This document shows, in pieces, positions 45,627 to 51,114 of a stretch of 51,114 nt of DNA. The notes under the pieces were generated by a model. That model was not told the origin of the DNA. It did no database searches and was given only the letters and a program-made list of their open reading frames with translations. A program made the position numbers and the translations under genes. The stretch's first letter is position 1. Each line of letters starts with the position of its first letter. The DNA is taken from NCBI GenBank assembly GCA_903859215.1, contig CAIOLW010000368.1, positions 1-51,114 of the forward strand, read 5' to 3'. This stretch comes from an uncultured bacterium. Its GTDB lineage: Bacteria > Krumholzibacteriota > Krumholzibacteriia > LZORAL124-64-63.

Positions 45627-46892
45627 TCAGGCGTGGGCGCGCAGGCGCGCCAGCGCTGCGGCGGCGACGGGCTGCGCGGGGTCGCGGCTCGTCGCGCGTT
45701 CGTACTGCCGCGCCGCGAGGTCGGGATGACCGGCCGCCTCGTACATGCGCGCGAGGTTCAGGCACGGGCTCGCCAGGTGCGGCAGCAGCGCAGCTGCCTG
45801 TTCAAGCGCCGCGCGAGCGGGCTCGCCGCGCCCGCCCTGCAGGTGCCAGACGCCGAGCGTGTTGTGGATGTGGCCGTCGCCCGGGGCCAGGCTCAGCGCC
45901 GCGCTGAGCAGGGGCCCGGCCGCTTCGGCGCGGCCATCGAGCATCGCCACCTGCGCCCGCAGGTGGCAGGCCTGCCCAAGCTGGGCGTCGGTTGCCTCGG
46001 CGCAGCGGGACACGGCCAGCAGGTGGGCCTCGGCGCGCGCGGGCGCCCCGGCCTCCTTCAACAGCCACCCGGCGGTCAGCCGCGCATCGGCATCGTCGGG
46101 CCTCATTGCGAGCACGCGTTCGGTCGCCGCGAGGGCCAGTTCGTGGTCGCCGGCCACCGCGGCGCAGTCGGCCAGTTCGCGCCAGGCGCCCGCGTCGCGC
46201 GGCAGGTCGGCAACCTTGCGCCGCGCCAGTTCCAGGTAGCGGCCGGCCTTGGCCGGGTCCTCCTGCAGCAGGCCGAAATGGTGGACGACCACCGGCAGGT
46301 CGACCACCGGCACGCCCAGCTCGGCCAGGCTCGCCTCGACCGTCTCGTGCAGTCGTCCGCTGAAGCGGACGCGCGGGTGATTGGGGAACAGGCGCACCTT
46401 GGCGGTCGGGACGAAGCCCGCCGTCACACCGGCCGGATGCCCGGGCAGCGCGTGCGTGTCGCCGGCCGGGACCGGTTGCCAGCCGCGGCGGCTCCAGGCC
46501 TGTGCGAGGTAGTTCCGGGTGACGATGTTCCCGCCCATCGCGCCCTGGGCCTGCCAGGTCGCCGCCGTGAGGCGGATTGCGGCCCAGTCGGCCGGGGCCA
46601 GTTGCTCGTCCGCGTCCAGGCACAGGATCCAGCGGGCCCGACAGGCGGCCAGCGAGGCATTGCGGGCGGCGGCGAAGTCGTCGCACCACGGGAAGTCGAG
46701 CACGCGGGCGCCGTGGCTCCGGGCAACCGTGGGGCTGTCGTCGCGGCTGCCGGTGTCCACGACGACGATTTCGTCGACATGGCCACGGGCGGCCCCGAGC
46801 AGGGAGTCCAGAAACTGGCCACCATCGCGGACGATCATGGCCAGGGCCAGCAACGGCGAGGTGGCGGGGTCCCAGCGGGCGTCGGGGTTCAC
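45627..46892 (-). CDS. Family 2 glycosyltransferase fused to TPR repeats
   Basis: This 421-residue protein has an N-terminal GT2 domain with LALAMIVRDGGQFL, DEIVVVDTGSRDDSP, and the nucleotide-sugar DxD as LCLDADEQL, ending near residue 200 with VRLFPNHPRVRFSGRLHE. Four to five TPR units follow (AWRELADCAAVAGDHELALA, ARLTAGWLLKEAGAPARAEA and others). Such GT2-TPR fusions are common in glycan or glycoprotein loci. GTG at 46892 is used as start; ATG at MIVRDG is too late for the fold. Confidence 0.83.
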   Translation of the reverse strand: MNPDARWDPATSPLLALAMIVRDGGQFLDSLLGAARGHVDEIVVVDTGSRDDSPTVARSHGARVLDFPWCDDFAAARNASLAACRARWILCLDADEQLAPADWAAIRLTAATWQAQGAMGGNIVTRNYLAQAWSRRGWQPVPAGDTHALPGHPAGVTAGFVPTAKVRLFPNHPRVRFSGRLHETVEASLAELGVPVVDLPVVVHHFGLLQEDPAKAGRYLELARRKVADLPRDAGAWRELADCAAVAGDHELALAATERVLAMRPDDADARLTAGWLLKEAGAPARAEAHLLAVSRCAEATDAQLGQACHLRAQVAMLDGRAEAAGPLLSAALSLAPGDGHIHNTLGVWHLQGGRGEPARAALEQAAALLPHLASPCLNLARMYEAAGHPDLAARQYERATSRDPAQPVAAAALARLRAHA

Positions 46893-47131
46893 TTCATCCG
46901 TCTTTCCAGTGCGTTGGCGCACAATTGGTTGCCGGGCCGTCAGTCCGGCGGCGATTCCCGGCGGTGGTTCCTTCCGCCGCCCGTGGAACCTTTGCAGGTC
47001 GCGTGCCGTTCGGAGCCTGCCGCTTTCACTTGTCGCCCGGGCCCCGGGGCGATAGTCTGGGCGACCGGCGCCGGCCACCCGTGGACAGGCGCCGCGCTGA
47101 CCCCCGACACCCAGCGAAGGAGACCGGAAAC

Positions 47132-47828: not shown

Positions 47829-48803
47829 TCAGCCGCGGATCGCGCGCACGGCCTTCGTCAGTTCCGGCACCACCTCGAACAGGTCGCCGACGATGCCGAA
47901 GTCCGCCACCTTGAAGATGGGGGCGGCGGCGTCCTTGTTGATGGCGACGATGCACTTGCTGCTGCTCATGCCGGCCAGGTGCTGGATCGCGCCGCTGATG
48001 CCGCAGGCGATGTACAGGTTCGGGCCCACGGTCTTGCCCGTCTGGCCCACCTGGTGCGAGTAGTCGACCCAGCCCGCGTCGACGACGGCGCGGCTGGCGC
48101 CGGCCGCGGCGTTCAGCGCGCCCGCCAGCTCCTCGATCATCGCGTAGTTCTCCGGGCCCTTGATGCCGCGGCCGCCCGAGACGACGATGTCGGCCTCGGT
48201 CAGTTCCACGCGACCACCGGCCGAACCGACGACCTCGCGCACGACGGCCTTCGGCGTCACGCCCGCCTGGCCCGCGTCGAAGGACGCCACCGCCGCCGCC
48301 GCGCCGCCGCATTCCTGCGCCACGAACGCGTTGGGCCGGATCGCGACGATCGCCGGCGCCGTCTTCGGCACCACGTCGACGAAGCACTTGCCGGCGAACA
48401 CGGGACGCCGCACGTCCCAGGCGCCGCCCGCGAACGCCAGGCCGACCGCATCGCTGATGCACGCGCAACCCAGCTTGGCGGCCGCCGTCGGGCCCAGGTC
48501 GCGGCCCATGGACGTGGCGCCCACGAGCACCAGGTCGGGCTTCTGCGCGCGGCAGAAAGCGGCCAGCGCCGTGCCGTACCGCTCGCTGTCGTAGGTCGCG
48601 AACGCGCCCTCGCCCGCGAAGACCTTGTGCGCGCCGTGCGCGCCGGCCTTGGCCGCGGCCGCGGCGCTGTCGCCGCCCAGCAGGACGCCCCAGACCTCGC
48701 CGCCGTTCGCGTCGGCCAGCTTGCGGGCCTGGCTGATCATCTGCCAGGCCACCTTCTTGAACGCGCCGTCGCGCTGCTCGATGAAAACCGCAATGTTCGG
48801 CAT
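47829..48803 (-). CDS. etfA: Electron transfer flavoprotein alpha subunit
   Basis: This 324-residue FAD-binding subunit of the ETF heterodimer accepts electrons from acyl-CoA or related dehydrogenases. The C-terminal FAD domain shows [33 protein letters not shown] in its usual form, [19 protein letters not shown], and [23 protein letters not shown]. There is no N-terminal ferredoxin domain. The gene lies 45 nt after etfB; that spacer holds a 9-bp direct repeat that duplicates the etfB stop. Confidence 0.95.
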
Positions 48804-48848
48804 GTCGGAGTCCCCCGCTGTTGGATGGCCTGGACTACATGTCCTGGA

Positions 48849-49625
48849 CTAAATGACCTTGGCTTCTTCGTTCAGCACGCGCGCAAGCTCGCGCGCGGCC
48901 GCGGCCGCGTCGTCGCCGGTGACCAGGCGGCAGGTGCCGCGCGCCGGCGGGGGACTGTACTGGCGGATCTCGACCAGCGCGGCCGGCGGCGTCACGCCGA
49001 GGTCCGCGCAGGTGACGATCTGCATCGGCTTCATGCCGGCCTTCATGATGTTCGGCAGGCTCGGCAGGCGGGGCTCGTTCAGGCCCTTCTGGCAGGTGAG
49101 CACGGCCGGCAGCGGGCAGTCGACGATCTCCTTGCCGCCCTCGATCTCGCGGTGCGCCGTCAGCGTGCCTTCGCCCAGCTCGAGCTTGGTGATGGTCGAG
49201 ACGTGGGGCAGCCCCAGCTTCTCGGCGACGAGGATGCCGACCTGGCCGCTGTCGTCGTCGATGGCCTTGATGCCGAAGAGGATCAGGTCGTAGTTGTCCT
49301 TCTTCAGCGCCGCGCAGAGCACGTCGGCGATGGCCGCGTCGTCGGCGCCGGCCAGCAGCGGGTCGTTGATGATGATGGCCTTGTCGCAACCGACGGCCAG
49401 GCAATCCTTCTTCAGCGTCTCGCGCACCGTCTCGGGACCCACGGTGATGGCGGTGATCTCGCCGCCGCGCGCTTCCTTGATCCGGACGGCCTCTTCGACC
49501 GCGTAGGCGTCGTAGGGGTTCAGGACGCGCGTGAACCCGGTCTGGTCCAGCTTCGCGGCCGGGGCGGCCAGATTGATCCGGGTCTCGGAATCCGGCACCT
49601 GTTTCACACAGACGGCAATCTTCAT
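48849..49625 (-). CDS. etfB: Electron transfer flavoprotein beta subunit
   Basis: This 258-residue ETF beta subunit has KIAVCVKQVPDSETRI, NPYDAYAVEEAVRIKEARGGE, GPETVRETLKKDCLAVGCDKA, DLILFGIKAIDDDSGQVG and LPSLPNIMKA. AMP or, in bifurcating types, FAD binds here; the type cannot be settled by eye. The ATG has a strong GGGAGGAAA ribosome site and a consensus promoter. Confidence 0.95.
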   Translation of the reverse strand: MKIAVCVKQVPDSETRINLAAPAAKLDQTGFTRVLNPYDAYAVEEAVRIKEARGGEITAITVGPETVRETLKKDCLAVGCDKAIIINDPLLAGADDAAIADVLCAALKKDNYDLILFGIKAIDDDSGQVGILVAEKLGLPHVSTITKLELGEGTLTAHREIEGGKEIVDCPLPAVLTCQKGLNEPRLPSLPNIMKAGMKPMQIVTCADLGVTPPAALVEIRQYSPPPARGTCRLVTGDDAAAAARELARVLNEEAKVI

Positions 49626-49688
49626 GTTTCCTCCCGAAAGACAGCGTCCCGGGGGCGCGGTCCGCCCCGCGGCAGCAGCATTCGGGCC

Positions 49689-49717
49689 ATAATAGGCGGC
49701 GCCCGGGGGGGAGTCAA
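49689..49717 (-). promoter_or_regulatory. Consensus-like sigma-70 promoter of etfBA
   Basis: On the minus strand, TTGACT (49717-49712) and TATTAT (49694-49689) are separated by exactly 17 nt, 64 nt before the etfB start. It is the best promoter match in the window, with five of six bases at each box. Confidence 0.72.
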
Positions 49718-49840
49718 CGCAGCCACCGGGCGGCCCACTGGGCGCTGGTGCCGGCGGCAGTGCTGCGCGATCATGGCGTCCTGGGCTGCGCCACGGGGGC
49801 GTGGCCGCGCCGGCGGGCTGGTCCCGCGGAGGCCCGCCCG

Positions 49841-50896
49841 ATGGCTGATCACCGCGACACGCGCTCGGATCACGGCCTGGTCGTCCTGGGTGACGGCCCG
49901 GGCGCGACCGAGTGCCTGCGCGCTGCCGCGGGGCTCGGGGTCGCGGTCGTCCAGGTGGCTCTGCCCGGGTTCCGGCGAGCGGCGGGCGCGATCGCGGTCC
50001 TGGCGCCGCGCCCGCGGGCGCTGCTGCCCGCGTGGTGGGCCGCCTCGCCGCCGGGCGGGGAGCGCGAAAGCGGTGAGGGTGTCCAGATCATCATCGGCGG
50101 CGGCCACACCGGCGTCGAGGCGGCCGTGCGCTGGTCCGCGCGAGCCGCTCATGTGGTGTTGGTCGAGGCGGACGCCCGGCTGCTGCCGGGCTGGGACGAA
50201 GGGGTCGCCGCGCAGGTGACCGCCGGGCTCGCGGCGCTCGGCGTCGAGGTGCTGGTCGATTGCCGCGCCGTGGCACTGGCCGCCCGCGACGGCGGGGTCG
50301 CCGTCCGGCTGCGCCCGCGAGGCGGCGGCGTCGAACGCGTCATGCACGCCGGCCTGGCCGTGCCGGCGATGGGCCTGCGCCCCGACCTGGCTGGGTTCGA
50401 CCTTGCCGGCACGCGGGCGCTCGCCGACCGCCTCGGCTTCCTGCAGGTCGACAGCCGGCTGGAGACCGCCGAGCCCGGCCTGCACGCGCTGGGCGCGGCC
50501 GTTGCCGTCCCCCTGACGCCGGCAGTGGTGGCCAGGCAGGCGCAGGTGGTGGCATCATGCGCGGCGGGGCTGCCGATCGCGCCGGTGCGCTACCACCTGC
50601 TGCCGCGTGTCATCGCCGGGCCCTGCGCGGCGCTCACCGCGGGGTTGACCGCGGCCGCGGCGCGCGAACGCGGCTTCCGGGTCGCGACCGGCCGCAGCGG
50701 CGACAGCACGGCGTGGGTGGCCTGTGTCCGCGACATCGAGACCGGCGCCGCGCTGGGCGTCCACGCGGCGGGCGGGCAGGCGGATGTGCTGGCCGACGCG
50801 GCGACAGCGCTGCTCGAGGGTGCGCACGCAGTGCTGCCCGTGAGCCTGGCTGCGGCGTTCGCGGCGGCGACGAAGGAGAACCCGTCCGATGACTGA
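49841..50896 (+). CDS. Truncated dihydrolipoyl dehydrogenase (E3)-like flavoprotein without redox cysteines
   Basis: This 351-residue protein has a first Rossmann loop LVVLGDGPGATECLRAAAGL like the FAD site of E3. The following region, including the redox motif CxxxxC and most of the FAD domain (about 100 residues), is absent. The NAD-binding domain (IIIGGGHTGVEAAVRW, LVEADARLLPGWDE) and the dimerisation-like domain (WVACVRDIETGAALGVHAAG) are kept. The C-terminal HPTxSE catalytic motif is also missing. GGAGG precedes the ATG. It overlaps the GlcD-like gene by 8 nt and is divergent from etfBA. It cannot do normal lipoamide chemistry. Confidence 0.75.
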   Translation: MADHRDTRSDHGLVVLGDGPGATECLRAAAGLGVAVVQVALPGFRRAAGAIAVLAPRPRALLPAWWAASPPGGERESGEGVQIIIGGGHTGVEAAVRWSARAAHVVLVEADARLLPGWDEGVAAQVTAGLAALGVEVLVDCRAVALAARDGGVAVRLRPRGGGVERVMHAGLAVPAMGLRPDLAGFDLAGTRALADRLGFLQVDSRLETAEPGLHALGAAVAVPLTPAVVARQAQVVASCAAGLPIAPVRYHLLPRVIAGPCAALTAGLTAAAARERGFRVATGRSGDSTAWVACVRDIETGAALGVHAAGGQADVLADAATALLEGAHAVLPVSLAAAFAAATKENPSDD

Positions 50897-51114
50897 GTCC
50901 CGCGACCGCCTGCTCACCGAACTCCGCGCGCTGCTCGGGCCGGCCGGCCTGTTGGCCGGCGCGGCGGCGCTGTCGGTGTATGCGCGCGACGCCTCGCACC
51001 TGGAGTGGGGCCGGCCGCTGGCGGTCGCGCTGCCGGCGCGCGAGGAGGACCTCGGCCGCGTGGTCGCGCTTTGCGCGGCCGCGGGCGTGCCGGTCGTGAT
51101 GCGCGGCGCCGGCA
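50889..51114 (+). CDS. N-terminus of a FAD-binding (PCMH) oxidase, GlcD-like (partial)
   Basis: The gene runs off the right edge; 75 residues are visible. VYARDASHLEWGRPLAVALP followed by REEDLGRVVALCAAAGVPVVMRGAG is the start of the PCMH FAD-binding domain of glycolate or lactate dehydrogenase-type enzymes. ATG at 50889 overlaps the E3-like gene by 8 nt. With etfBA and the CCG membrane protein near, an Etf-linked hydroxy-acid oxidation route is plausible. A GlcD-CCG fusion form cannot be excluded. Confidence 0.75.
   Translation, partial: MTESRDRLLTELRALLGPAGLLAGAAALSVYARDASHLEWGRPLAVALPAREEDLGRVVALCAAAGVPVVMRGAG

Follow-up and report, generated by a model that had tools for sequence, protein, structure and literature searches.

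A degenerate dihydrolipoyl dehydrogenase-like gene retained beside a GlcD-GlcE oxidase gene in a genus of Krumholzibacteriota

A reading frame near the end of a contig from an uncultured member of the Krumholzibacteriota (genome G000, contig C368, GenBank CAIOLW010000368.1; the whole contig, 51,114 nucleotides, is the window analysed here) raises the question of why a gene of the dihydrolipoyl dehydrogenase (E3) family stays in place, with an open frame, after losing the parts that carry the family's chemistry. The gene, here called E3L, occupies positions 49841-50896 of the forward strand and encodes 351 amino acids between an ATG start and a TGA stop. It is a real and conserved oddity, with an ordinary origin as a redundant paralogue losing its chemistry.

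Make-up of E3L and its neighbourhood

Judged by its sequence, E3L is a descendant of dihydrolipoyl dehydrogenase. Two Pfam families score above their cut-offs, Pyr_redox_2 (residues 83-231; 60.8 bits, cut-off 26.1) and Pyr_redox (44.4 bits, cut-off 22), and the residues of the NAD-binding Rossmann motif are retained. Pyr_redox_dim gives no Pfam match up to an E-value of 1 in the G000 protein (P0001); elsewhere it matches weakly, below cut-off, in G002, G003 and G011 and above cut-off in G015. The best relatives in the PDB are E3 dehydrogenases, with significant matching only from about residue 80 on, and an AlphaFold2 model built from five sequences was too poor for use (pLDDT 47.6). Against the NCBIfam model for lipoamide dehydrogenase (TIGR01350, cut-off 408.8) E3L scores 79.7 bits and the degenerate protein of G015 183.2, whereas the full-length locus E3 of G019 reaches 509.

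Alignment with the full-length E3s of this locus shows where the losses lie. E3L no longer has the disulfide helix (GGTCLLRGCIPTK), and about 90 residues are gone from its FAD domain, most of the stretch from beta-2 to the ATG motif; overall the protein has become shorter by about a quarter. The N-terminal Rossmann unit of that domain persists as a fast-evolving relic (VVLGDGPGA..., residues 12-38; 49874-49954, +) that keeps the first FAD GxGxxG as GDGPGA at residues 17-22. The region of the former ATG motif reads VLAPRPRALLPAWW (residues 51-66; 49991-50038, +), has the CxxxxC-helix stretch missing ahead of it, and is followed by the NAD-type Rossmann domain (residues 81-165; 50081-50335, +) with its GGGHTG...E motif intact at residues 86-93 and E109. 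Next comes the stretch best conserved within the genus (residues 166-285; 50336-50695, +), in which the second FAD motif has changed from GD to GA at residue 219 (GV in G002), and finally the remainder of the interface domain (50576-50893, +), which has lost an 11-residue loop and HPHPTLSE. The HxxxxE dyad is absent from all six degenerate proteins that we found in the family, and the CxxxxC disulfide from those of G000, G001, G002, G003 and G015, this region of G011 lying off its contig. Lipoamide dehydrogenase chemistry requires the disulfide, the FAD contacts and the His dyad, and with the disulfide, the dyad and most of the FAD contacts missing, E3 chemistry is excluded for E3L. The alignment and the TIGR01350 score thus bear out a preliminary description of the gene as an E3-like flavoprotein without the redox disulfide, much of the FAD domain and the His motif, and the two GxGxxG motifs agree with its picture of a two-Rossmann remnant.

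The last codons of E3L overlap the ATG (50889) of a gene for a GlcD-GlcE fusion oxidase by 8 nt, an arrangement shared by the four genomes G000-G003 of the genus. Only the start of this gene lies in the window (50889-51114, +); it is truncated by the contig end and continues on G000:C93, where GlcF follows it. The fusion is whole in G001 (811 residues; L004 615-3050), and its relatives are the glycolate oxidase 9qgz, LDHD and LctD. Most family genomes with GlcDE have a frame of similar length, and the GlcDE gene of G014 (L034 1468-3851) is read in two frames, reflecting a frameshift or an assembly error. On the other side, an intergenic stretch (49626-49840) separates E3L from the divergent etfB (48849-49625, -), beyond which lies etfA (47829-48803, -). 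The intact frame, the overlap with the neighbour, the coupling to a GlcD-type gene and the divergence from etfBA had all been reported before and hold, with the refinement that the supposed glcD is a GlcD-GlcE fusion. Farther along, a chalcone isomerase-like gene (PF16036, 47243-47734) converges with etfA and is retained in the genus, and a fusion of a family 2 glycosyltransferase with TPR repeats (45627-47078) is likewise retained in the genus, next to etf.

The EtfB sequence bears on whether NAD would be expected to take part at this locus. In an alignment with canonical ETFs it has D in the AIDG/AIDD stretch where the bifurcating CarD has G, and a glycine is given as the mark of bifurcating ETFs in PMC12630350; we infer that the glycine column described there is the AIDG/AIDD column. 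Read in this way, EtfB is of the canonical type at the residue separating the two classes, so a NAD step would not be expected at EtfB, and the residue speaks for a probably ordinary ETF beside the operon.

The same place in related genomes

Searching 58 genomes (including G000 itself) with E3L gave matches in 54, chiefly ordinary E3s. The order etfAB, E3, GlcDE, GlcF recurs across the family, often with the E3 operon divergent from etfBA. In each of the four genomes that represent the genus (G000-G003; the G001 gene was read from two contigs), a degenerate gene without the disulfide and the His dyad lies at the same place, so that the homologs with the same loss beside glcD/etf that the preliminary description asked for exist in G001, G002 and G003. 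The G002 protein is an intermediate of 408 amino acids with more of the FAD domain left. An assembly artefact was rejected as an explanation because the features are common to four separately binned genomes and G000 is listed as 100% complete with 0.54% contamination. In other genera the place is held by an E3 of full length that has GGTCLLRGCIPTKAL and either HPHPTLSE or HPHPSLSE; a full-length lpd here in relatives was one half of what the preliminary description had named as speaking against its own reading.

GlcDE was searched for in 38 genomes of the family and is present in 27. The place before GlcDE holds an E3 of full-length type in nine of these (G005, G010, G014, G019, G020, G022, G023, G029 and G060, the N-terminus of G022 and G029 being off the contig with the disulfide out of view) and a degenerate E3 in six (G000-G003, G011 and G015, the N-terminus of G011 again off the contig). 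E3 is absent in another nine (G007, G009, G012, G021, G026, G027, G028, G058 and G059, where a second GlcDE piece, on C218, likewise stops at a contig edge), and contig ends make the place unreadable in three (G017, G030 and G032). A full-length-E3 profile that recovered three controls found no E3 remnants in the nine absences (best E-value 0.59). Directly before GlcDE, five of them (G027, G021, G026, G009 and G012) have a large frame that by eye resembles an RND pump gene, and the full-length E3 of G019 is itself directly preceded by an RND pump gene (PF00873); the adjacency of RND and GlcDE looks like a clean deletion of E3 alone. Since E3 is absent in nine of 27 GlcDE-bearing genomes with the neighbours intact, the oxidase is independent of E3L; the degenerate copy of G015 does not adjoin etf, and an obligate partnership of E3L with glcD/etf is therefore not found.

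Full-length E3s also occur in G033 and G034, where GlcDE is missing or sub-threshold at contig ends, and adjoining etf, with GlcDE not nearby, in G008, G016 and G031. A profile built from the degenerate forms was searched against 80 genomes of the class and retrieved only the six, the next matches being full-length locus E3s (281 versus 246 bits). Downstream of GlcF, both G019 and G015 carry an ArsR-methyltransferase fusion and an S-adenosylhomocysteine hydrolase (L037 9869-12295; L044 1474-3811), neighbours that hint at a one-carbon link.

By the GlcDE tree, the degenerate forms do not go back to one event. This tree mostly tracks genera and distributes them over three lineages, namely the E3L genus, g13 (G015) and g9 (G011), and genus g9 by itself contains a full E3 (G020), a degenerate one (G011) and none (G028). 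A single clade of degenerate forms is rejected on this tree (p-AU 4e-10; 3e-5 without G011), a test made on a quick tree and assuming that E3 and GlcDE travel jointly, and at least seven state changes are needed on it. The E3 tree unites the degenerate forms (100/99), which counts against parallel decay, though with a long-branch warning from the program; tested singly, G011 groups with its own genus (87/100) and G015 falls into the g8/g9 group, and the E3L genus has no settled position. We reject one origin for all degenerate forms and take the decay to have run in parallel in several lineages, since the GlcDE tree rejects a single one.

The ancestor would have been a second, operon-borne dihydrolipoyl dehydrogenase, as relatives have a full-length E3, the GlcD-GlcE fusion and then GlcF. 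An E2 with an E3-binding domain and an intact lpd encoding a complete E3 lie at G000:C110, and with this E2-linked E3 elsewhere in the genome the locus E3 would have become redundant; freed in this way, it may have shed the disulfide, the FAD half and the His dyad. That the full-length locus E3 was instead relocated within G000 was considered and rejected, the other E3-like proteins there being just 39% and 30% identical to it. In G001-G003, matches outside the locus that span the greater part of the query show 29-40% identity; further E3 pieces, two adjoining on one contig in G002 (42% and 53%) and one fragment in G001 (45%), leave some room for a diverged second full-length copy in these two genomes.

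Constraint on E3L within the genus

An open frame says little here, because neutral simulations at the GC content of E3L are often stop-free (3-35% of runs), and the intact frame counts as weak evidence of function. Substitution patterns are more telling. Under MGK+F3X4, on four genomes of which one (G001) was read from two contigs, omega for E3L is 0.20 and omega=1 is rejected (2dlnL 251); the same model gives nearby values of 0.15 for GlcDE and 0.13 for GlcF, with 0.058 for EtfA and 0.043 for EtfB. By NG86, pN/pS of E3L is 0.45-0.65 over eight comparisons (0.51 [0.42-0.60] for G000 versus G003), against a neutral expectation of 1.1-1.2 and 600 simulations in which no value fell below 0.76. 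At synonymous sites, G000 and G003 differ by 0.17 in etfA/etfB and by 0.57-0.92 in E3L, GlcDE and GlcF (window 47829-50896 with L027, L076 and L077), which implies either that codons are strongly constrained in etf or that the glc half has been exchanged.

The constraint is uneven along the protein. It is strongest in the middle and C-terminal parts, with pN/pS over residues 166-325 at 0.26-0.35 for G000 versus G003 (0.36-0.85 against G002), and weakest at the N-terminus, where the first 80 residues evolve fast and pN/pS over the first 45 is relaxed (0.81-1.00); the C-terminal end is variable. An omega of 0.054 for residues 1-80 conflicts with the relaxed pN/pS of the first 45 and is untrusted because of saturation and doubtful alignment. 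An alignment of 14 E3s of full-length type has 205 columns with conservation of 90% or more. Of these, 48 are unchanged in the genus, 25 have switched to a different residue on which its members agree, 73 vary and 59 are gone; the kept columns include the NAD motif (G86, G88, G91, E93 and E109 throughout the genus). This pattern, together with the constraint, indicates that E3L is neither an intact E3 nor drifting freely. The earlier judgement that the gene is not in simple decay is upheld by the same losses at the same place in four of four genomes and by the omega of 0.20, and E3L does not look like a pseudogene, having no stops and this same omega.

Possible roles and known systems

The common place and homology, the parallel loss of catalytic parts and the purifying selection in the genus are what the sequence data show. 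The account that we favour, by a modest degree, is that E3L is a pseudoenzyme, dead as an E3 and retained in an accessory, non-catalytic role in the GlcDE-GlcF oxidase. In the genus, the NAD-type Rossmann domain and the interface relic would have been retained as a subunit for docking or stabilisation, whose synthesis the overlapping reading frames would couple to that of GlcDE; since the NAD Rossmann residues are conserved, binding of NAD(H) is plausible, and E3L might sense it. Against such an accessory role, the operon persists without the gene in nine relatives, and the fast evolution of the first 80 residues and the variable C-terminal end also count against it.

A possible but less probable reading is that E3L is a relic on its way out, a redundant decaying E3 whose frame persists for translational coupling to GlcDE while the protein is idle. 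The occurrence of full, degenerate and absent states within g9, the 8-nt overlap in every genome of the genus and the ease with which stop-free frames arise by chance at this GC content all fit such a course, but translational coupling would leave residues 166-285 unconstrained, and neither the purifying selection at the amino-acid level nor the 25 new residues common to the genus would be expected of an idle product.

Also rather unlikely is that the former lipoamide dehydrogenase now serves GlcD-GlcE/GlcF as a subunit that binds NAD(H), either sensing NAD+/NADH and so gating the oxidase or providing the site of hydride transfer from a GlcDE flavin to NAD+; the hydride path to NAD+ would be a long shot. 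In its redox form, which we consider improbable, E3L-bound NAD+ would take hydride from a flavin of the GlcD-GlcE fusion to make a NAD+-reducing 2-hydroxyacid dehydrogenase. The conserved NAD motif and the tight coupling to GlcDE would suit it, but with the flavin-binding and disulfide parts gone E3L would have neither flavin nor disulfide of its own and no visible electron path, nine relatives have GlcDE-GlcF without it, EtfB is of canonical type, and NAD+-dependent lactate oxidation is called highly endergonic in PMC9232219. Of the NAD-linked subunit of an Etf system first proposed for this gene, the conservation stands, but the gene is dispensable to the operon, the G015 copy lies away from etf, and the degenerate forms of G011 and G015 arose separately. 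Least credible is an enzyme still active on a new substrate, independent of flavin or thiol, to which the selected residues within 166-325 could be assigned but for which no new conserved Cys/His/Glu cluster is evident among the switched columns.

Searches of open-licence PMC papers found neither a report of an E3 pseudoenzyme nor a description of an E3-GlcDE-GlcF-Etf operon. The family offers a natural series at one conserved place, from full-length E3 through remnant to nothing, with the remnant selected in one genus, and thus offers a way to study why a redox enzyme is retained after its chemistry is lost; it also raises the question of whether a non-catalytic subunit with an NAD fold can be part of 2-hydroxyacid oxidases of the GlcDEF type.

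Glycolate oxidase GlcDEF and the Etf-linked D-lactate dehydrogenase LctBCD resemble the present system in the kinship of GlcDE (9qgz, LDHD, LctD), and etfAB adjoins here; unlike in those systems, GlcD and GlcE are fused and EtfB is of canonical type. To our knowledge, neither has an E3-like subunit. The full-length locus E3 of sister genera (E3/Lpd, TIGR01350) matches E3L in place, gene order, NAD Rossmann domain, FAD-domain GxGxxG and part of the interface domain, but E3L is without CxxxxC, GD, HxxxxE, about 90 FAD-domain residues and the 11-residue interface loop. Pseudoenzymes in general have lost catalytic residues and keep part of their fold under selection, and E3L shares these features with them.
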